Source: Cytophagales bacterium
GTDB taxonomy: Bacteria > Bacteroidota > Bacteroidia > Cytophagales > Cyclobacteriaceae
DNA length: 64,000 bases
Assembly (NCBI GenBank): GCA_017303805.1
Contig: JAFLBQ010000002.1
Coordinates: 124,001 to 188,000, forward strand
Direction: 5' to 3'
In this document: positions 7,301-26,969 of the stretch, in pieces
How the letters are laid out: the number at the start of each line of letters is the position of its first letter
Position numbering within the stretch: position 1 is the first letter of the stretch
Position numbers and translations under genes: made by a program
Notes under the pieces: model-generated
What the model was told of the DNA's origin: nothing
The model's input: the letters and a program-made list of their open reading frames with translations, nothing else
Databases searched by the model: none

Positions 7301-9029
7301 TACGCCCTTGTTTAAAGTTGATAAAGGCATTGGCAATGGTATCGGTAAGGGAATGTATTTTAAGGTTATCGTAGTCAGAAAGGCCTTTGGCCGATTGTAG
7401 AAAATTAACCGCTTTATCCTTCACATGGATTCTGCCAGAGCGGGCGTCATAGTCGATCATGCCGGTTTGCATTAAAAACTCGGCTGCCATGCGCGCCACT
7501 GCCAGGCTGCGGCCTTCTTCTACCAGATCGAACACGTAAAAGTCGCTACTGCCAATGGCATTGGCATAGTTTACCACCAAGGCCAGCGGATGAAAATTAA
7601 ATCCTTTGCCGCGCAGTTCGCGGTAGCCTTCGGGGTCATAAAAATCGTTTGACTCAATTACCATGGGCGCCACTTTGCCACTACCCAGCACCCACATCTT
7701 CAGGCTATCTGATTTAAGGTTCCAATCCAGCCGGTCGGCAGTAAACTCAATCTGAAAAAAAGAAGAGGCGAGCGGAGCTTTGCGTTGTGCGCTTTTATCT
7801 TTATTGAGTGTGAGGCGCTGCCGCCCATAGTCGTAGCGCAGTTCCATGGCGGGGTGGGTAATCGAATCGTTTTGATGATAGATGGTTACCCGGGCTTGTG
7901 GCGAAACGACTAACGAATCTTTAAAACCAAAAGTAGAAGCAACTGCCCTGAATTTGCGTGCTACATCACCCATCACTTCTACAGTAGCCAGGTTGCCGCT
8001 AACTGTATTTGAGTTAATGGCTGCGCCTTGTAAGCCAAAGCCGCCCCGGTAATTTATATTCAGGCTTTCGAGCCCCGCCAATTTAATGTTGGCTTCGTAC
8101 GATTTGAAACGCGGATAGGTAGCTGTTTGCGGAGATTTATGGTTAACGCTCCGAAACTCGAAAACACCGGGCACGGTACCTTGCACCTTACCAACATATA
8201 CAAGCCGCGCCTGTTCTGCCTTTAAATAGGGCTGGGTAGTTTTAAAGTTGTACTTATTTAAATCACAATAAACCGAATCGGGCGAAAGCCCTGCGGCTGT
8301 CCAATCGAAACGGCCACCTTCGCCCACAAACAATTTATCGCGCAAAGAAAAGATTCCTTTCGTGTTGGTGAGATTTACTGAATCGTAAGCGGTGCTTATG
8401 TGCAACGATACTTTATTGAAGACGATTACCGGCCCCCACACATCGGGTTGCACAATGGGCTGTTGCCAGGCCGGAGTAGTATAGGCGCTGGTGTCGATGG
8501 CCGCATCGTAATTATAGTTATAATATTGGGTTGTATCCAGCGGGGGTGGTTCCTGATAGTCGAACGAATACGAATCATCTTTGGCTACCAGGCGCAAAGC
8601 CTTATCGTAATTCAGTGCATGATGTTCAAAGAAATCGCGAGCTAACTGAAAAAACAAATTGGCTTGCAGGGCATTGTCTTTGGCCAGCACCTTATCGGCC
8701 ACAGCCAAAAAACTGCTAAGGGTGGCGGGGTCGGCTTGTTCAATATTTACGGCTGCGGCCACCGCTCCGTAATAGTTTATAAAATGCGGGCGCAACCGAA
8801 AGCCCTTCTTCTTCATAATGCGGGCTTGCGATCTTATTTTAAATTGCTGGTCGGGGCCGGTGGCATTCCAGGCCGTACCAAATGCAGCCCCAATGGCAAG
8901 CGCATCGTTGGCTTTCGTGTTTTCAAGCACCAGGCGCACGCTGTCCTGAAAACTGTAGGGGCCTCCGTTTTGGCCAAACAGGCTGGTGGAAATACAAAGG
9001 ATGGCAATATGGGCAAGTACCAGTTTCAA
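4353..9029 (-). CDS. Giant secreted protein of unknown function (1558 aa)
   Basis: The protein starts with a signal peptide (MKLVLAHIAILCISTSLFGQ) and has no later membrane helix that I can see. The body is a long run of short alternating polar/hydrophobic segments typical of beta structure, with recurring patterns such as FNGTINAGNFEISG, RLDATAGGVIYFD and FEGPVKFFDAAKDFKI, many Asp/Asn turns and few Cys. The C-terminus is a charged Lys/Glu/Asp tail (about residues 1543-1558). I do not recognise a catalytic motif or named domain. The overall look (long periplasmic beta-rich scaffold) recalls OstA/LptD-N or AsmA/TamB-type proteins, but that is only an impression. It lies upstream of no obvious partner; prmA is about 130 bases away on the same strand. 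It probably acts in the periplasm or outer membrane. Confidence 0.8.
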   Translation of the reverse strand: MKLVLAHIAILCISTSLFGQNGGPYSFQDSVRLVLENTKANDALAIGAAFGTAWNATGPDQQFKIRSQARIMKKKGFRLRPHFINYYGAVAAAVNIEQADPATLSSFLAVADKVLAKDNALQANLFFQLARDFFEHHALNYDKALRLVAKDDSYSFDYQEPPPLDTTQYYNYNYDAAIDTSAYTTPAWQQPIVQPDVWGPVIVFNKVSLHISTAYDSVNLTNTKGIFSLRDKLFVGEGGRFDWTAAGLSPDSVYCDLNKYNFKTTQPYLKAEQARLVYVGKVQGTVPGVFEFRSVNHKSPQTATYPRFKSYEANIKLAGLESLNINYRGGFGLQGAAINSNTVSGNLATVEVMGDVARKFRAVASTFGFKDSLVVSPQARVTIYHQNDSITHPAMELRYDYGRQRLTLNKDKSAQRKAPLASSFFQIEFTADRLDWNLKSDSLKMWVLGSGKVAPMVIESNDFYDPEGYRELRGKGFNFHPLALVVNYANAIGSSDFYVFDLVEEGRSLAVARMAAEFLMQTGMIDYDARSGRIHVKDKAVNFLQSAKGLSDYDNLKIHSLTDTIANAFINFKQGRMNVYGVEEFNVSDSLNVVIKPDSSRITFLQNRDIKFNGTINAGNFEISGRDFTLKYDSFFINMNHIDSIRFYVTEKNGTRRRVNNAMVGADSTAQAASGMQASANKTSGTLFINRPNNKSGKEKLPNYPRLDATAGGVIYFDRSEVLNGAYDRSVFFVVPPFKLDSLNDADPGSINFEGTFITSGMFPSFKEKLHTMPDKSLGFKHTIPTSGYQLFQGDGKLYGGMTLDNAGIRAAGKIDYLAATVESRDFIFYPDSVVGRGSVGEIREKLFGSVYFPQVKLNDYRLKWLPKQDKMNIKNMKEPFSLYQNTATLDGSLIVSKSGVGANGKLTTRGSEVRSKELSFSAKDFNARHARFEVKTGNPNKPALAGRDVKLNFNLEKNFATISPEVAGVAAIDFPYAQFKTSIPEARWDLTTQKIVMNKAPDVPLADSYFYTTRKELDSLSFNATRAEYDIQTQQLKVSGIPYITVADARITPENNEVLILENAKIGQLKNTTIVMDTLNGYHRLTQGVVDIVSRKEFTGYATYQYVNAVNDTFAIKMTDFHLEPITEQTRNKRNRGNATMQTVANGAVTESSNIRVAPRIFYKGDMTLYATKPALQLKGFVKLDLKKIKDYKTWLLYTQSGDEKEIYLDFNNAITEEGRKPDAGLHFAQDNDLYITFVFDKKDPADDDFFLPSGFLFYDENTKEFRIEDRAKSAGEKLSGKVFAYNEDKQEVRFEGPVKFFDAAKDFKITASALGSGNLDTDVIKMNSFIMLDMNIPTTVYQLMAASIADVIKNEGVKEEGLGDHTELLYKIADLVGERVVKDYEQRSLREYVPLPTVQGMQKPLVLSNVNLKWSQERKSFYSEGLLGLSHVQRTDLNGAFEGFVEVRKNEDDAPVFHLFIKASPDAWFYFGLEDNRLMIHSSLQTINDLVAKKTNAGKAKVGELAFIPGTIDETLSWINKFRLNYYGLEAPYDLSSAGPGTKKKTEKKKEEDDGF

Positions 9030-19820: not shown

Positions 19821-21386
19821 CTATCTACTCGCAATAAACTTAGGCGCCTGCCGATGGCGTGTGGCCTGTTCATAGCTGTAAGCAATCTCGATAAGTACGG
19901 GTTCTTGCCACGCGGTACTAAAAAAAGAAATCCCAACCGGCAACACATCTACAAAGCCCATGGGCACCGTAATAGATGGATAGCCGGCAATGGCTGCCAG
20001 CGAAGAGCTGCCACCCAAAAAATGATCGCCATCAATCCAATCGGTTTTCCAGGCCGGTGCCCCGGTAGGCGCTACCAGGGCATGCAGGTTGTTCTCTTTC
20101 AAAAGTTTGTCAATGCCGTTTTCTCGGGTTGCCTTTAGCATGGTTGCCAACGCATCCGTGTATTCCTTATCCAACAGGGTTCCTTTTTCTGATGCCAGCC
20201 GCACCAGGTTCTGATCGAAATGGTTCAACTCCACAGAATCACTTTTGTTAAACTCCATCAACTCTTTCAAATCTTTTACCCTTGCCGTGGGACCGAGGCT
20301 GGCAAAGTAGTTGGTAAGGCCATCTTTAAACTCGTAAAGCAGCACAGTGAAAGAGGCGCTTCCGGCACTCCGTTCCATGGTAAAATCCAACTCAACCACC
20401 TCAGCCCCCTGGGCACGTAAATCGGCAAGCGCTCGTTTCATTAACGTATCCACCCGGGCATGATACCCGCCAATGCTCTTTAGCCACCCAATGCGTTTAC
20501 CCTTTAATCCATCGGCTTTAAGATGGGAAGTATAATCCGTAAGGTAGTTGCCTTGTGCAGCCAAGGTCTTTTCATCCCGTGCATCTACTCCGGCTAAAAC
20601 TCCCAGGGTAATTGCTACATCGGTAACGGAGCGCCCCATGGGGCCTGCTGTATCTTGTGTAAACGAAATTGGAATTATCCCGCTTCTGCTTAATAACCCT
20701 ACTGTTGGCTTAAGGCCTACCAACCCGTTGGCATTGGAAGGACATACAATGGAGCCGTTGGTTTCGGTACCGATGGCTATTGCACAAAGACTTGCCGATG
20801 CAGCTACCCCTGAGCCTGAACTGGAGCCGCATGGATTACGATCTAAGACATACGGGTTTTTTGTTTGCCCCAACATGCCGCTCCAGCCGCTACTTGATTT
20901 GCTGGCTCTGAAGTTAGCCCACTCACTCAAATTGGCTTTGGCTATGATGATTGCCCCTGCCGTTTTCAGTTTTTTTACCAGGTGGCTGTCATCGGGCGGA
21001 TACGAATCGTGGAGCACGGTTGCGCCCGCAGTGGTAGGCATATCGGCCGTATTCAGATTATCTTTTACAATAACCGGTATGCCGTGCAGCGGGCCCCGGA
21101 TCTTACCGGCTTTCCATTCGCTATCCAACTCGCGGGCAAGTTCCAACGCGTGTGGGTTAACGTAAATAATCGAATTGAGTGCCGGCCCCTTTTTATCCAG
21201 GTCTTCTATGCGTTGCAGGTAATCTTTCACTACCTGTTCAATCGTATAGCTACCTTGTTCATAGCCCTGGCGTAATTGGGTTATTGAGATTTCTTGCAGG
21301 TATTGATGGGCCAAGTAGCTATTTGGGGTATCTGAAACACAACCGATAGCCAAGGATATAACCAGTACCATGAGCATGCTGCGCAT
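19821..21386 (-). CDS. Amidase-signature lipoprotein
   Basis: A 521-aa member of the amidase signature family with a lipobox (ISLAIGC, Cys 16), so it is lipid-anchored. The Ser-cisSer-Lys triad is intact: K108 in PVIVKDN, S188 in the CGSSSGSG loop and S212 in GTETNGSI, with the GatA-like 24-residue spacing between the two serines. GatA itself is cytoplasmic and works with GatB; a lipoprotein amidase of this size instead hydrolyses small amides or peptide amides outside the cytoplasm. The substrate cannot be told from sequence. It converges with the M20 gene and points away from the ATP-grasp pair, whose start lies about 215 bases away. Confidence 0.88.
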   Translation of the reverse strand: MRSMLMVLVISLAIGCVSDTPNSYLAHQYLQEISITQLRQGYEQGSYTIEQVVKDYLQRIEDLDKKGPALNSIIYVNPHALELARELDSEWKAGKIRGPLHGIPVIVKDNLNTADMPTTAGATVLHDSYPPDDSHLVKKLKTAGAIIIAKANLSEWANFRASKSSSGWSGMLGQTKNPYVLDRNPCGSSSGSGVAASASLCAIAIGTETNGSIVCPSNANGLVGLKPTVGLLSRSGIIPISFTQDTAGPMGRSVTDVAITLGVLAGVDARDEKTLAAQGNYLTDYTSHLKADGLKGKRIGWLKSIGGYHARVDTLMKRALADLRAQGAEVVELDFTMERSAGSASFTVLLYEFKDGLTNYFASLGPTARVKDLKELMEFNKSDSVELNHFDQNLVRLASEKGTLLDKEYTDALATMLKATRENGIDKLLKENNLHALVAPTGAPAWKTDWIDGDHFLGGSSSLAAIAGYPSITVPMGFVDVLPVGISFFSTAWQEPVLIEIAYSYEQATRHRQAPKFIASR

Positions 21387-21556: not shown

Positions 21557-21595
21557 ATGGCAAATAGTATTTACTGCAACACCTACGGGTGGTAG
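21557..21595 (+). other. 12-codon micro-ORF before the ATP-grasp genes
   Basis: An ATG at 21557 opens a frame of 12 codons (MANSIYCNTYGW) ending with TAG at 21593-21595, 5 bases before the ATG of the first ATP-grasp gene. It could be a leader peptide that couples translation, a ligase substrate, or chance. No ribosome-binding site is evident. The call rests on position only. Confidence 0.15.
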
Positions 21596-21600
21596 GGTTT

Positions 21601-22701
21601 ATGGCATTACCTGATCCAATTACCACCTACAAAGTCTGGATTTTTGCTCCATACCTGGAGACGGAAGACCCTACTCTAAAATTTTACTACGACTACACCC
21701 AAAGCATTGCCGAATACACGAAAGTGTTTTCTGAAATTAACTGCGAGTGGGAGTGGGTTAATGTAACCTTGCAAAATATTGATACCTGCATTGACCGGGT
21801 AAAAAATCATTCCGGCAAACCGAGCATTGTATTAAATCTTTGCGATGGGGATGAGATCAATGAGGTGCCTGGCATTTCCGTTATCCATGCACTGGATAAG
21901 AGCGGCATTACCTATACAGGTTCCGATTCTTACTTCTACCGGATGACCACCTCTAAAATTACCATGAAGGAGGCTTTTGGTAAAGCCGGTGTATCGATGC
22001 CCGGCTGGAAGAAAGTGAATACCCGAATCGACTCAAGCTTCTTTAAGAAAGTAGGCGATACCATAATTGTGAAACCTGCAGTATCGGCAGGAAGTATGGG
22101 TATTAGTGTAAAAAATGTAGTAAGCGATAAAGAGCAACTTAAAGAAGTAGTGCGCAACATGCGCGAAGGCTTTAAAGGGTGGAAGTTGGATGGAGCCGGC
22201 ATTCTGGCCGAGCAATACATTATAGGCCGCGAGTTTACCACGTTGTTGGTTGGTTCGCACCAGCACCCCGATCGCATTAAGTTTTATCAACCTATAGAAC
22301 GCGTATTTCACGAGTCGCTCCCTGAAACTGAACAATTCCTTTCTTTCGACCGGCTTTGGGAATCGTACGAAGAAGAAACCCCAATGCCCGACAATGGTTT
22401 TTTCTATGAATACGAACAGGTAACAGATCCCGAACTGATTGAGCGGCTTAAAGCATTGAGCATTGATGCCTTTAAAGCAGTAAAGGGTACCGGTTATGCC
22501 CGGTTAGATTTCCGGCAAGACAAACATACCGGCCAGCTGTTTGTATTAGAGATAAATGCCCAATGCGGACTAAGCGATGATGAAAACTATACATCTATCG
22601 GGGCAATTCTTCGCGTAAGCAATAAAACCTTTACCAACCTAATAGTAGAAGTACTGGAAGATGCCTTGCATCGCCACACCCGGTTAAAACAATACGTCTA
22701 A
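21601..22701 (+). CDS. D-Ala-D-Ala-ligase-like ATP-grasp enzyme
   Basis: A 366-aa cytosolic protein with the ATP-grasp fold in the D-Ala-D-Ala ligase style. A pre-ATP-grasp domain covers about 1-115. The ATP-binding Lys 158 is followed by the glycine/serine loop (KPAVSAGSMGIS). E204 lies in AEQYIIGREFT; D303 (RLDFR) and E317/N319 (LEINA) are the magnesium ligands. Such enzymes activate a carboxylate as acyl-phosphate and ligate it to an amine. It is unlikely to be the housekeeping Ddl, because it forms a tandem with a second ATP-grasp enzyme carrying a SET domain, and its N-terminal half departs from Ddl. The ATG at 21601 is preferred to a GTG 12 bases upstream. The spacing to the next gene is 37 bases, so the two are probably one operon. 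Confidence 0.85.
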   Translation: MALPDPITTYKVWIFAPYLETEDPTLKFYYDYTQSIAEYTKVFSEINCEWEWVNVTLQNIDTCIDRVKNHSGKPSIVLNLCDGDEINEVPGISVIHALDKSGITYTGSDSYFYRMTTSKITMKEAFGKAGVSMPGWKKVNTRIDSSFFKKVGDTIIVKPAVSAGSMGISVKNVVSDKEQLKEVVRNMREGFKGWKLDGAGILAEQYIIGREFTTLLVGSHQHPDRIKFYQPIERVFHESLPETEQFLSFDRLWESYEEETPMPDNGFFYEYEQVTDPELIERLKALSIDAFKAVKGTGYARLDFRQDKHTGQLFVLEINAQCGLSDDENYTSIGAILRVSNKTFTNLIVEVLEDALHRHTRLKQYV

Positions 22702-22738: not shown

Positions 22739-24184
22739 ATGAAGGTTTGTGTGTTGCAACCCGATTATAGGACTACCGATGTAGATTATAAAAATTACGA
22801 TCCGCCTCGCAACCTGGCCCCCTTACTCCCCAACGATCAGGTAGATCATGTTTTTCTTAACAAGCTTACCACGTACAAACAACTTAAGGAACTCCGCAAG
22901 CAGAAATACGATATCTATGTAAACCTCTGCGAGGGATATCTGGACTGGTCTGTTCCTTCCATTGATGTAATCCATTCGATGGATGCGCTTAACCTTCCGT
23001 ACACCGGCCCCAATGCAATTTTGTACGATCCGGCCAAGCCCTTGATGAAGTACGTGGCTTATTGTGCAGGTGTAAAATCACCATTATTTGCAGAGGTAAA
23101 CAACGCCAGCAACCTGGCGGCAAAAGTAAAACACTTAACCTTTCCGTTGTTTGTAAAGCCGGCAAAAGCGGGCGATAGTCTGGGTGTGGATGAAGAATCG
23201 CTGGCAAAAGATCTGCCGCATCTTCAACACAAAGTAGAAACGCTGCTGGCAGAAGGGTACGAAGATATTTTGATTGAAGAATACATTGCCGGGCAGGAGT
23301 TTACGGTATTGGTAGCCGCTAATATTGCCCCGGCAAAAGGTGCGCGGGCTTTCAAACCAGTTGAATATAAATTCCCGAAAGGCTATGCATTTAAAACCTA
23401 TGCATTAAAAACTTCGGAGCTGCATACCGATGTAAACAAACCCTGCACTGACGCGGCCCTGGAAATGCGGCTGAAAGCTGCGGCCGAAAAAATCTTTACC
23501 GGCTTTTCGGGTGTTGGGTATGCCCGGCTTGATTTTAGGGTAAACGAAAAACAGGAAATCTATTTTTTGGAAATCAACTTTACCTGTTCGGTATTTTACC
23601 AGGATGGCTACGAAGGTTCTGCTGACTACATTTTGCAGTTTGACCCGATTGGTAAAGCCGGGTTTCTACAACATATTATACAGGAGGGTCTTGCCCGCCA
23701 TGCCGCAAGGCAAAAGAAACACCGCGTAAAAGGCAATGCCATAAACGGCTATGGTATTGTGGCTCAGAAAACAATCCGCAAAGGCGAAACCATTTTTAAG
23801 TTCGAAGGCTCGGCCCAGCGCATCATTACCAAACGATACGTAGAACAAAACTGGACGCCTGAACAGATTGAAGAATTTCGGCATTATGCCTACCCGATTT
23901 CTGATGAGGTGTATATTTTATGGGACAACAAGCCCGAAAACTGGGCGCCCCAAAATCATAGCTGCGCACCCAACACCCTTTACGATGGGCTTAATCTTAT
24001 TGCCTTGCGCGATATTGAGGCCGAAGAAGAACTAACCCTGGATTATGCCGACCTGCTGGACGATAATATTCAATCATTCGTATGTACCTGCGGCCATCCC
24101 AATTGCCGCAAGGTTGTTTCCGGCCGTGCCGAAAATTCAATTACCCAGCGCGAGAAGATTCAGGTAAACCCACCACAGCGCTAG
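22739..24184 (+). CDS. ATP-grasp ligase fused to a SET methyltransferase domain
   Basis: A 481-aa two-domain protein. Residues 1-325 are a D-Ala-D-Ala-ligase-like ATP-grasp enzyme: K140 with loop PAKAGDSLGV, E180/E181 in LIEEYIAGQEFTV, D265 in RLDFR, and E278/N280 in FLEIN. Residues about 330-465 are a SET domain with all hallmark elements: NGYGIVA (337-342), the SAM/pseudoknot motif NHSCAPN (406-412), the catalytic Tyr 436 in ELTLDYAD, and a post-SET zinc cluster CTCGHPNC (C449, C451, C456), which with C409 would bind zinc. The SET domain therefore looks active as a lysine or amine methyltransferase. The natural reading is that the ligase makes a peptide-like product or modifies a protein, and the SET domain methylates it. 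The paired ATP-grasp gene precedes it by 37 bases. Confidence 0.9.
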   Translation: MKVCVLQPDYRTTDVDYKNYDPPRNLAPLLPNDQVDHVFLNKLTTYKQLKELRKQKYDIYVNLCEGYLDWSVPSIDVIHSMDALNLPYTGPNAILYDPAKPLMKYVAYCAGVKSPLFAEVNNASNLAAKVKHLTFPLFVKPAKAGDSLGVDEESLAKDLPHLQHKVETLLAEGYEDILIEEYIAGQEFTVLVAANIAPAKGARAFKPVEYKFPKGYAFKTYALKTSELHTDVNKPCTDAALEMRLKAAAEKIFTGFSGVGYARLDFRVNEKQEIYFLEINFTCSVFYQDGYEGSADYILQFDPIGKAGFLQHIIQEGLARHAARQKKHRVKGNAINGYGIVAQKTIRKGETIFKFEGSAQRIITKRYVEQNWTPEQIEEFRHYAYPISDEVYILWDNKPENWAPQNHSCAPNTLYDGLNLIALRDIEAEEELTLDYADLLDDNIQSFVCTCGHPNCRKVVSGRAENSITQREKIQVNPPQR

Positions 24185-24284: not shown

Positions 24285-26969
24285 ATGAAAAAAATCACTT
24301 ACCTGCTTGCCATTCTTATTTCGCTGGCAGCGCTTTGGTACTTCATGCCCGCGCAAAAGATTGACTATAATACACAGGTAAAACCCATCTTTAATAAAAA
24401 GTGCATCTCGTGCCATGGCGGTGTAAAGCGCGAGGCAGAGTTTAGTTTGTTATTCAGGCAAGAGGCGCTGGCCAAAGCCGAATCGGGCAAGTATGCCATT
24501 GTGCCGGGTGATGCCGCCCATAGCGAATTGGTGAGGCGCATTTCCACTACCGATCCGGAAGAACGTATGCCTTACAAAAAAGAGCCCCTAACACAAGAGG
24601 AGATTGACATACTTACGCAATGGATTGAAGAAGGAGCCGCGTGGGGCGATCATTGGGCTTACGTTGCAGTAAAAGCGCAAACTGTACCCACTAAAAATGA
24701 ATGGACAAAAAATGATGTCGATGCCTTCATCTATCAAAAACTTCAAGCCCATTCGTTAAAGCCCTCCGCTTCCGCAGATAAAGCCACCTTGTTGCGCAGA
24801 GTAAGCCTTGACCTGATTGGCATGCCCGCGCCAGCACCCATTGCGCAACGCTTTCTTGCAAACGAAGACTCAAAAGCATTTGAACTGCTGGTGGACGAGC
24901 TGCTCGCCTCGAAACACTTTGGCGAACGTTGGGCCAGCGTATGGTTAGATCTTGCGCGCTATGCCGACACGAAGGGTTATGAACGCGATGACAGTCGCGC
25001 CATTTGGCGTTACCGCGATTGGGTAATCAACGCCTTTAATGCCGGCATGCCCTACAATCAGTTTCTTACAGAACAACTTGCGGGCGACTTACTCGAAAAC
25101 CCTACCGATGATCAATATATCGCCACTGCGTTTCATCGCAACACCATGACCAACGATGAGGGCGGCACCGACAATGAAGAATTTCGCACGGCTGCCGTGC
25201 TGGATCGTGTAAACACAACGTGGGAAGCGCTGATGGGAACCACCTTTGCCTGTGTGCAATGCCACAGCCATCCGTACGATCCGTTTACACACGATGAGTA
25301 TTACAAATTCATGGCCTTCTTCAACAACACCCGCGATGAAGACACAGAAGCCGAATATCCGTTACTGCGGCACTTCGAAAAGGAAGATGCCGAAAAGCTA
25401 ACCACTCTCACCAATTGGATTACCAACAACATTTCTGCTGAAAAAGCTACCGAAGTGTATCGCTTTGCCAAAACGTGGCAACCCAGTATCAATTCGATAC
25501 AAGCCGATGAGTTTGTGAACAGTGAACTTACCGATACCAAGTGGTTAATCTTTCGCAACCAGGCACAATGCCGGTTGCCCCATGTAACACTTACCGGCAG
25601 CAACCGGCTGATTTATCGCTACAGTAGTTGGGTGAATGACGGGGTTTGGAAAATTTATTTAGATAGCCCCACAGGGCCATTGCTTAAAACCATCGAAGTA
25701 AAAAATACCAAAAACAACTGGCAGATTGTAGATTTTACAGTCGCTCCTATTAACGGAGTGCATGATTTATATTTCACGTATTCCAGTCCGCAACTTAAAA
25801 ACCCAGACGCCAGCGGAATGATTTTCGATTGGTTTTACTTTACGGACAACTGGGACACTAACCATCCGGAAATGAGTAAAACATTTTGGGAGCTGGTGCG
25901 CAAAGAACCCCCTACCACTCCCATCATGTTCGATAACCCCGAGAAGATGAAACGCACCACCCATATTTTTGAGCGCGGCAATTGGTTGGTAAAAGGCGAT
26001 GAAGTAGAAGTGGCTGTTCCGCATATGCTCACTGCTTATCCAGACAAGGCCCCAAAAAATCGGTTAGGCCTTGCTCAGTGGATGACAGACCCGGCACATC
26101 CACTAACTGCGCGTACAATCGTAAACCGGGTTTGGGAACAACTCTTTGGTATTGGCCTGGCCGAAACGGTGGAAGATCTCGGCACGCAGGGAATACCGCC
26201 CACACATCCGGAGTTGCTGGATCACCTGGCGTGGAAGTTGGTGCACGACTACAACTGGAGTTTAAAAAAACTAATGCGCGAAATTGTGCTGTCGGCAACT
26301 TACCAGCAAAGTTCAGATGTAAATGAAGAGTTGCTGGAGAAAGATCCGCTCAATAAATTGTATACACGTGCCCCCCGCGTTCGCCTTTCGGCCGAGCAAT
26401 TGCGCGACCAGGCCCTGGCAGTTAGTGGTTTGTTAAGCACTAAAATGTATGGCCCCAGTGTAATGCCGTATCAACCTGCTGGCATCTGGAAATCGCCCTG
26501 GAACGGACAAGACTGGAAACTGAGTGCAGGCGAGGACCGGCATCGCAGATCGTTGTACACCTATTTAAAACGCACCGCTCCGTATCCTTCCATGCTTACG
26601 TTCGATGGAGCATCGCGTGAAGTATGCACCGCCAGGCGCATTCGCACCAACACGCCCTTGCAGGCATTGGTAACGCTAAACGATTCGGTTTATGTAGAAG
26701 CTGCTGCGCACCTTGCCCAAAAGATGCAAGCTCACCCACAGGCACGCGATCAGGTGGCAGCCGGTTACGAATTAGCAACCGGGCAAAAGATTTCCGAACA
26801 AAAACTTGTTGCCTTGATGAAGTTATACGAGGGCGCATTAGCCCGGTTTAAGAATGGCAATAGCATAAAAGTATCTACCAGTAAAGAAGTCCCTTGGCCA
26901 CAGCAGCAGGCGTTGAGTTTAGTGGCAACAGCCATTTTAAATCTGGATGAAATGATAACCCGAAATTGA
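24285..26969 (+). CDS. PSCyt1/DUF1549/DUF1553 cytochrome-like protein
   Basis: An 894-aa exported protein with an N-terminal signal or anchor helix ([20 protein letters not shown]). The order of domains is the planctomycete-type one: a PSCyt1 c-type cytochrome module with heme motif CISCH (C40, C43, H44); DUF1549 (PSCyt2, about 140-350), which contains a second CxxCH (CVQCH, C323-H327); a beta-rich carbohydrate-binding-like region (about 390-530); and DUF1553 (PSD1, about 600-860). Such proteins are thought to take part in extracellular oxidation or breakdown of complex polysaccharides. They are usually followed by a Tat-exported DUF1501 protein; here no DUF1501 gene is adjacent, the next gene being on the opposite strand. 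The start follows the ATP-grasp/SET gene by 100 bases. Confidence 0.88.

Follow-up and report, generated by a model that had tools for sequence, protein, structure and literature searches.

The gene described here joins a D-Ala-D-Ala ligase (Ddl)-like ATP-grasp ligase to a SET methyltransferase domain on one polypeptide, and it is one gene of a small conserved cassette rather than an odd isolated fusion. Besides the fusion, the cassette comprises a second Ddl-like ATP-grasp ligase, here termed AG2, and a small SET protein (about 165 residues). With its two SET domains and its pair of peptide-type ligases, this conserved set occurs in Bacteroidota, in Rhodocyclaceae and in a Fibrobacteres MAG. 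Its function is a prediction: we lean, with modest confidence, towards a pathway complete in itself whose product, made from free amino acids, is a small methylated peptide or amide.

Architecture of the fusion gene

Within the window, that is, the whole 64,000-nucleotide stretch analysed, a single open frame of 481 aa on the forward strand spans the whole fusion (22739..24184, +). Residues 1-325 (22739..23713, +) form the ligase part, with a Pfam match to the D-Ala-D-Ala-ligase-like ATP-grasp domain at residues 124-280 (7e-19), and residues 326-470 (23714..24148, +) form the SET part, with a match to the SET domain at 337-436 (1e-12). The single frame and the two matches confirm the claim of a previous sequence-only reading that an ATP-grasp ligase is fused directly to an intact SET domain. 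In the ligase part, K140, E180, E187, K224, R263, D265, E278 and N280 stand at conserved ATP-grasp positions and include the Lys, Glu, Asp and ExN ligands noticed by that reading; in ATP-grasp enzymes, Lys and Glu residues at such positions bind ATP, and Asp, Glu and Asn residues bind Mg. The SET part contains all of the motifs previously listed for it, namely NGYGI (336-340), NHSCAPN (406-412), the catalytic Tyr (Y436) and a three-Cys post-SET cluster (C449/C451/C456), as well as a distinctive helical insert at about 361-400 that terminates in NWAPQNHSC.

When the model of the whole fusion was compared with known structures, ligase matches occupied the entire list and no SET structure was among the matches listed; the SET part was therefore modelled separately. 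Both a Ddl fold and a SET fold are predicted by the models. The predicted Ddl fold is accompanied by the presumed ATP-binding Lys/Glu and Mg-binding Asp/Glu/Asn residues that mark Ddl-like ATP-grasp enzymes, and the predicted SET fold by the NHSC-type motif, catalytic Tyr and post-SET Cys cluster of the SET superfamily. Among 64 copies (that of the window and those of 63 related loci, the basis of all counts out of 64), the signature residues for ATP, Mg and the SET domain show no variation in any copy that covers them, with the exception of E278, which is Asp in three copies. Many copies carry NHSCxAN or differ just upstream of NHSC.

This conservation bears on the idea that one activity of the fusion is silent and that the SET or the ligase is a mere binding or oligomerisation module, to which we assign a very small probability. 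Both activities are indeed predictions, and there is a precedent in TTLL12, a eukaryotic protein with a SET-like region at 91-249 and a TTL-like region at 353-642, both of which are reported to lack critical residues, and which is described as inactive in vitro (PMC3520985). Unlike in TTLL12, the catalytic positions of the fusion are kept across the copies from Bacteroidota, Rhodocyclaceae and Fibrobacteres, as assigned by record title.

Distribution of the fusion

A peptide-pattern scan of the genome collection revealed 63 loci that encode relatives of the fusion, 59 of them near full length and four cut (L014, L017, L062 and L066). This count is too low, because the scan requires an exact short match. 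By record title, the carriers are mostly Bacteroidota (Cyclobacteriaceae, Chitinophagaceae, Saprospiraceae and others), joined by two Rhodocyclaceae (L057, L059) and one Fibrobacteres MAG (L060). The copy of a record titled Williamsia (L020) shares 64% identity with that of the window, and its contig may be mis-binned. Among 194 genomes drawn from the window's order, a full-length fusion was present in the window's own genome only and was not found in three other genomes of the same genus; among 395 genomes drawn from the class, four carried it (two class searches of 395 genomes each, with identical handles, were treated as one draw). The fusion is a patchy, accessory trait.

Partial matches occurred in 13 plasmid records, none of which covers 80% of the fusion. 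A phage origin was rejected, since viral contigs gave 18 pattern matches but no encoded relative at any of them, and a role in anti-phage defence was rejected as PADLOC-DB yielded no family for the fusion, AG2 or the small SET protein. NCBIfam yielded no family for the small SET protein and none for the fusion as such. In the open-access literature, a scope that takes in few of the subscription papers, we found no description of a bacterial ATP-grasp and SET fusion; the two papers that mention both domain types, one on TTLL12 (see above) and one on drug side effects, appear not to deal with bacteria. Domain databases may list the architecture.

The second ligase

AG2 is encoded at 21601..22701 on the + strand and ends 37 nt before the fusion. 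Its frame was listed from a GTG at 21589, and the ATG at 21601 is the likelier start because several near relatives align from residue 5, which corresponds to this ATG. With gaps computed from the first possible start codons, AG2 precedes the fusion by at most 300 nt in 54 of 64 loci, with a median gap of about 13 nt and a 4-nt overlap in nine. AG2 or a fragment of it was present in 61 of 64 genomes: 56 have it within the locus, L044 and L045 show a fragment at the contig end, and for L054, L060 and L066 it lies in another part of the genome. Of the three remaining cases, the contigs of L014 and L017 start inside the fusion, and in the third genome (G216, locus L056; 9.0 Mb) neither AG2 nor the small SET protein was found. 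The ATP-grasp residues K123, K162, E208, E215, R305, D307, E321 and N323 of AG2 are invariant in the 42 rows aligned, out of 58 found. Duplicated forms were also encountered: the genome of L060 encodes two AG2-type ligases head to tail in one frame of 718 residues (L131, G223:C47:671-2665), and L057 contains two AG2 genes side by side.

By sequence and fold, the ligase families nearest to the cassette ligases are the Ddl and Van ligases. Against TIGR01205 (cut-off 245.65) the fusion scored 76.9 bits and AG2 69.6 bits, compared with 320.8 bits for the genome's own Ddl. Identity as a Ddl or Van ligase was rejected on account of these scores far under the curated cut-offs and of the separate Ddl. 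BacD is a weak match of AG2. In the ligase tree, for which the program warns of long branches, AG2 groups with the fusion ligase in one clade that excludes Ddl (100/96), and among the rows used each of the two forms a clade of its own (99/96 and 100/100, respectively). As judged by eye, the omega-loop Tyr and the N-terminal amine-binding motif of Ddl are not kept in the cassette ligases; these differences suggest that the substrates of both AG2 and the fusion ligase are probably other than D-Ala.

The same comparisons address a function in the cell envelope, with the ligases making a D-amino-acid dipeptide or depsipeptide variant for peptidoglycan that is methylated by the SET domains. The proximity of Ddl and Van ligases agrees with such a function, but the low TIGR01205 scores and the presence of a dedicated Ddl argue against it, and no mur or van gene was recognised among the recurring neighbours, most clusters of which were judged by eye or left without identification. 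We regard an envelope function as quite improbable.

A separate fusion was observed in L070 (1381-3318, G072:C7), a protein of 646 aa in which a class I methyltransferase, hence another methyltransferase fold, is fused to a Ddl-like ATP-grasp domain; its neighbours, inspected by eye, gave no clue to function.

The small SET protein and its co-occurrence with the fusion

Of the 64 fusion genomes, 54 have the small SET protein, 34 of them within the locus itself and 20 elsewhere. A search of 29 further fusion genomes yielded 18 near full-length small SET proteins (E 4e-58 or better), one split gene and ten genomes with none. The small SET protein of L057 was placed by genome search, and the short row of L045 is an AG2 fragment that was excluded from these counts. 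In 29 of the 34 loci that hold it, the small SET gene lies within 60 nt of AG2; a tight run of small SET, AG2 and fusion, the last following within 300 nt, occurs in 27 of 64 loci (L035 and L049 being the exceptions among the 29). In the window's genome the small SET gene is located on another contig (G000:C11), flanked by genes that by eye resemble aconitase and Nudix hydrolase, so that the set is complete but dispersed. In G217, it resides on the fusion's contig at about 5 kb from the fusion's SET. A permuted order of AG2, fusion, ABC membrane protein and small SET in L154 (G335), and an adjacent pair of small SET and AG2 on a contig other than the fusion's in G215, indicate that membership of the set outlives gene order. 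The set is not strictly obligatory, as ten of 64 fusion genomes show no small SET protein, among them the draft of the cultured Ferruginibacter paludis (G214, 6.9 Mb), and G216 seems to lack AG2 as well. In G210, the genome of L042 (record titled chromosome), the small SET gene is in two pieces in different frames (L096/L107), which may reflect decay or a sequencing error.

Among the 193 other genomes of the order draw, no match to the small SET protein was better than 1e-20, with weak relatives at about that value in the fusion-less G047 and G102. In the class draw, where scoring was limited to the top candidates from each genome, a small SET protein at E<=1e-50 was present in all four fusion genomes and in one of 391 others (G524). 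The Fisher test gave p 5e-9, or 2e-7 when five weaker relatives in non-fusion genomes (G258, G321, G352, G382 and G437; 1e-32 to 1e-37) were counted, values that overstate independence, because three of the four fusion genomes belong to one family, the locus of G450 is the same as L039, which was already in the model, and the fourth genome is the window's own. The protein of G524 (3e-56) occurs in a genome with no fusion and with no ligase within the surrounding 16 kb. The distant relatives in G352, G437 and G382 (L151-L153) adjoin genes that by eye resemble ABC ATPase, SDR and MFS transporter genes, and no AG2 or fusion match was found in these stretches.

The sequence-only reading had placed the fusion in a dedicated pathway without mention of the adjoining AG2. 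The survey of gene neighbourhoods that it proposed as a check returned both AG2 and the small SET protein, and with these two partners the pathway claim is firmer.

Genes outside the core set

An ABC transporter membrane region (PF13748 in L030, 5002-5931) that has no ATPase domain adjoins the fusion in L030 and 19 other loci; in 19 of these 20 of the 64 loci its gene follows the fusion directly on the same strand, and in L056 it is on the opposite strand. A family search detected it in two of 17 genomes, mostly chosen because their loci were without it, and not in the window's genome. As it is confined to a subset of loci and absent from the window's genome, the ABC membrane protein was rejected as a core part. 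The divergent amidase upstream of AG2 and the fusion (19821-21386) recurs in 11 loci and the PSCyt1/PSCyt2/PSD1 protein downstream (24285-26969) in seven. The amidase and the three downstream neighbour clusters were rejected as pathway parts and represent local synteny, because they are common only to near relatives of the window.

ATP-grasp ligases are also reported to tailor ribosomal peptides of the graspetide type (PMC8939145), and the cassette could in principle act on a precursor peptide encoded elsewhere. Within 1.5 kb of the 64 cassettes, 477 small ORFs (20-100 aa) gave no widely conserved candidate, with the proviso that BLAST can overlook relatives among ORFs this short. The largest sets of similar ORFs comprised 6, 4, 4 and 4 loci of near relatives, one of them overlapping the AG2 start and others on the opposite strand. 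These narrow sets and the Ddl-like character of the cassette ligases make graspetide-like tailoring the least probable of the alternatives.

Relationships of the two SET types

The nearest solved relative of the small SET protein, by a clear margin, is BurB (structures 9l4t and 9l4v): its profile reached 6e-19 with BurB, and MLL1 came next among the structures at 1.5e-8. BurB is a SET methionine S-methyltransferase of the DMSP/malleicyprol pathway that acts on free methionine (PMC12542666). For the fusion SET, the profile gave 2e-13 for BurB, with an alignment only from HSC onward, versus 2e-12 for histone SETs, and the predicted structure gave a tie between BurB and ASH1L. The lead of BurB over histone SETs is thus slight, and the fusion SET is not clearly BurB-like. 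In the SET tree, fusion SETs (99/99) and small SETs (100/98) each form one clade among the rows used, and the small SETs fall with a BurB orthologue, four other single SETs and L112 into a weakly supported group (90/87), in which BurB is a long branch. The copies from Rhodocyclaceae and Fibrobacteres group together in all four sequence sets of the two trees, as is expected if the set was inherited together.

Of 49 well-conserved columns of the small SET protein, 23 are identical in the BurB orthologue of Eleftheria terrae and 26 differ. The common columns include the equivalents of BurB Thr73, Gln75 and His81, the Ser and the Glu that follow the catalytic Tyr, and the tail motif I-x-GA; the small SET protein has Asn before HSC and FF before the catalytic Tyr, where BurB has Leu and MD, respectively. 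BurB binds methionine via main chains only, with Thr73 contacting its amine in this manner (PMC12542666), and since the contacts are of this kind, common side chains are no proof of a common substrate. We consider the small SET protein a probable BurB-like enzyme, for which methionine S-methylation is one possible activity.

The Eleftheria terrae orthologue itself (L140, plasmid NZ_CP106953.1, 1-16186; gene at 7722-8243, E 1.7e-73 to BurB) is annotated as a protein lysine methyltransferase. It is preceded by a type I PKS and followed by a dioxygenase, an aminotransferase and an aldehyde dehydrogenase, and L140 is a bur-like cluster outside Burkholderia. Two further SET architectures were observed: in Paraburkholderia phenoliruptrix pSYMBR3459 a SET domain is fused with a hydrolase of the HAD type, and aminotransferase and transporter genes lie next to it (L141, 3875-5419), and a protein of 534 residues in G068 (L158, 4202-5806) has a C-terminal SET domain after about 390 residues with no Pfam match.

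The best-known role of SET domains is the methylation of protein lysines. The cassette might accordingly modify proteins, with ligases that attach amino acids to the tail or a side chain of a protein and SETs that methylate protein lysines, as the eukaryotic TTL-family ligases and lysine methyltransferases do. The retained NHSC, Tyr and post-SET Cys of the fusion SET, its equally good superposition on ASH1L and the existence of TTLL12 are all compatible with this. Characterised relatives of Ddl, the family nearest to the cassette ligases, join free amino acids or dipeptides, however; no gene for a substrate protein recurs beside the cassette across lineages, and the nearest solved relative of the small SET protein acts on a free amino acid. 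Protein modification is for these reasons unlikely.

Discussion

The make-up of the cassette, with two ligases of one lineage, two SET units and in some loci an ABC protein, and the lack of a conserved precursor among the small ORFs found are consistent with a small-molecule pathway fed by free amino acids, ATP and SAM. In such a pathway, the small SET protein would methylate a free amino acid on sulfur or on the amine. AG2 would activate a carboxylate as acyl phosphate with ATP and couple it with the amino group of another amino acid, and the ligase of the fusion would add another unit or make a second amide. The SET domain on the same polypeptide would then methylate the product, which may be exported in the lineages with the ABC protein. 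Family placement and co-occurrence are observed parts of this scheme; substrates, product and order of steps are inferred. The sequence-only reading had proposed ligation followed by N-methylation of a small peptide or protein tail. Its dedicated pathway stands, but N-methylation, ligation as the first step and a protein tail as target are no more than possibilities. By sequence, both SET types have BurB as their nearest solved relative, and since BurB S-methylates free methionine, a small-molecule target and even S-methylation are possible too.

SET enzymes are by default read as protein lysine methyltransferases, and bacterial SET proteins are annotated in this way, even a BurB orthologue; perhaps a group of them is mis-annotated. 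Should the small-molecule pathway be correct, the cassette would join BurB as a further case of SET chemistry in small-molecule metabolism and would predict a metabolite that can be sought directly. We tentatively suggest a new class of biosynthetic assembly, in which SET enzymes, known as histone methyltransferases, and paired ATP-grasp ligases would together make an undiscovered peptide metabolite with a sulfonium or N-methyl group, and in which a single chain would couple the ligation step with methylation.

The small SET protein resembles BurB in being closest to this solved structure, that of a bacterial SET protein acting on a free amino acid. We know of no case in which BurB works with ATP-grasp ligases. 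The reported partners of BurB are BurI, BurD and BurE (PMC12542666), whereas the cassette SETs pair with such ligases. On the ligase side, the cassette resembles the natural-product ATP-grasp ligases BacD and MysD, which join free amino acids without ribosome or NRPS; to our knowledge, ligases of this type have no SET partner. From Ddl, the fusion ligase differs by its fused SET domain and by its occurrence in a host with a separate Ddl. TTLL12 likewise unites domains of the SET type and the ATP-grasp type in a single chain, although it has a TTL-type ligase and the order SET-like then TTL-like (PMC3520985). The bacterial fusion shows the reverse order, in which a Ddl-like ligase precedes the SET domain.
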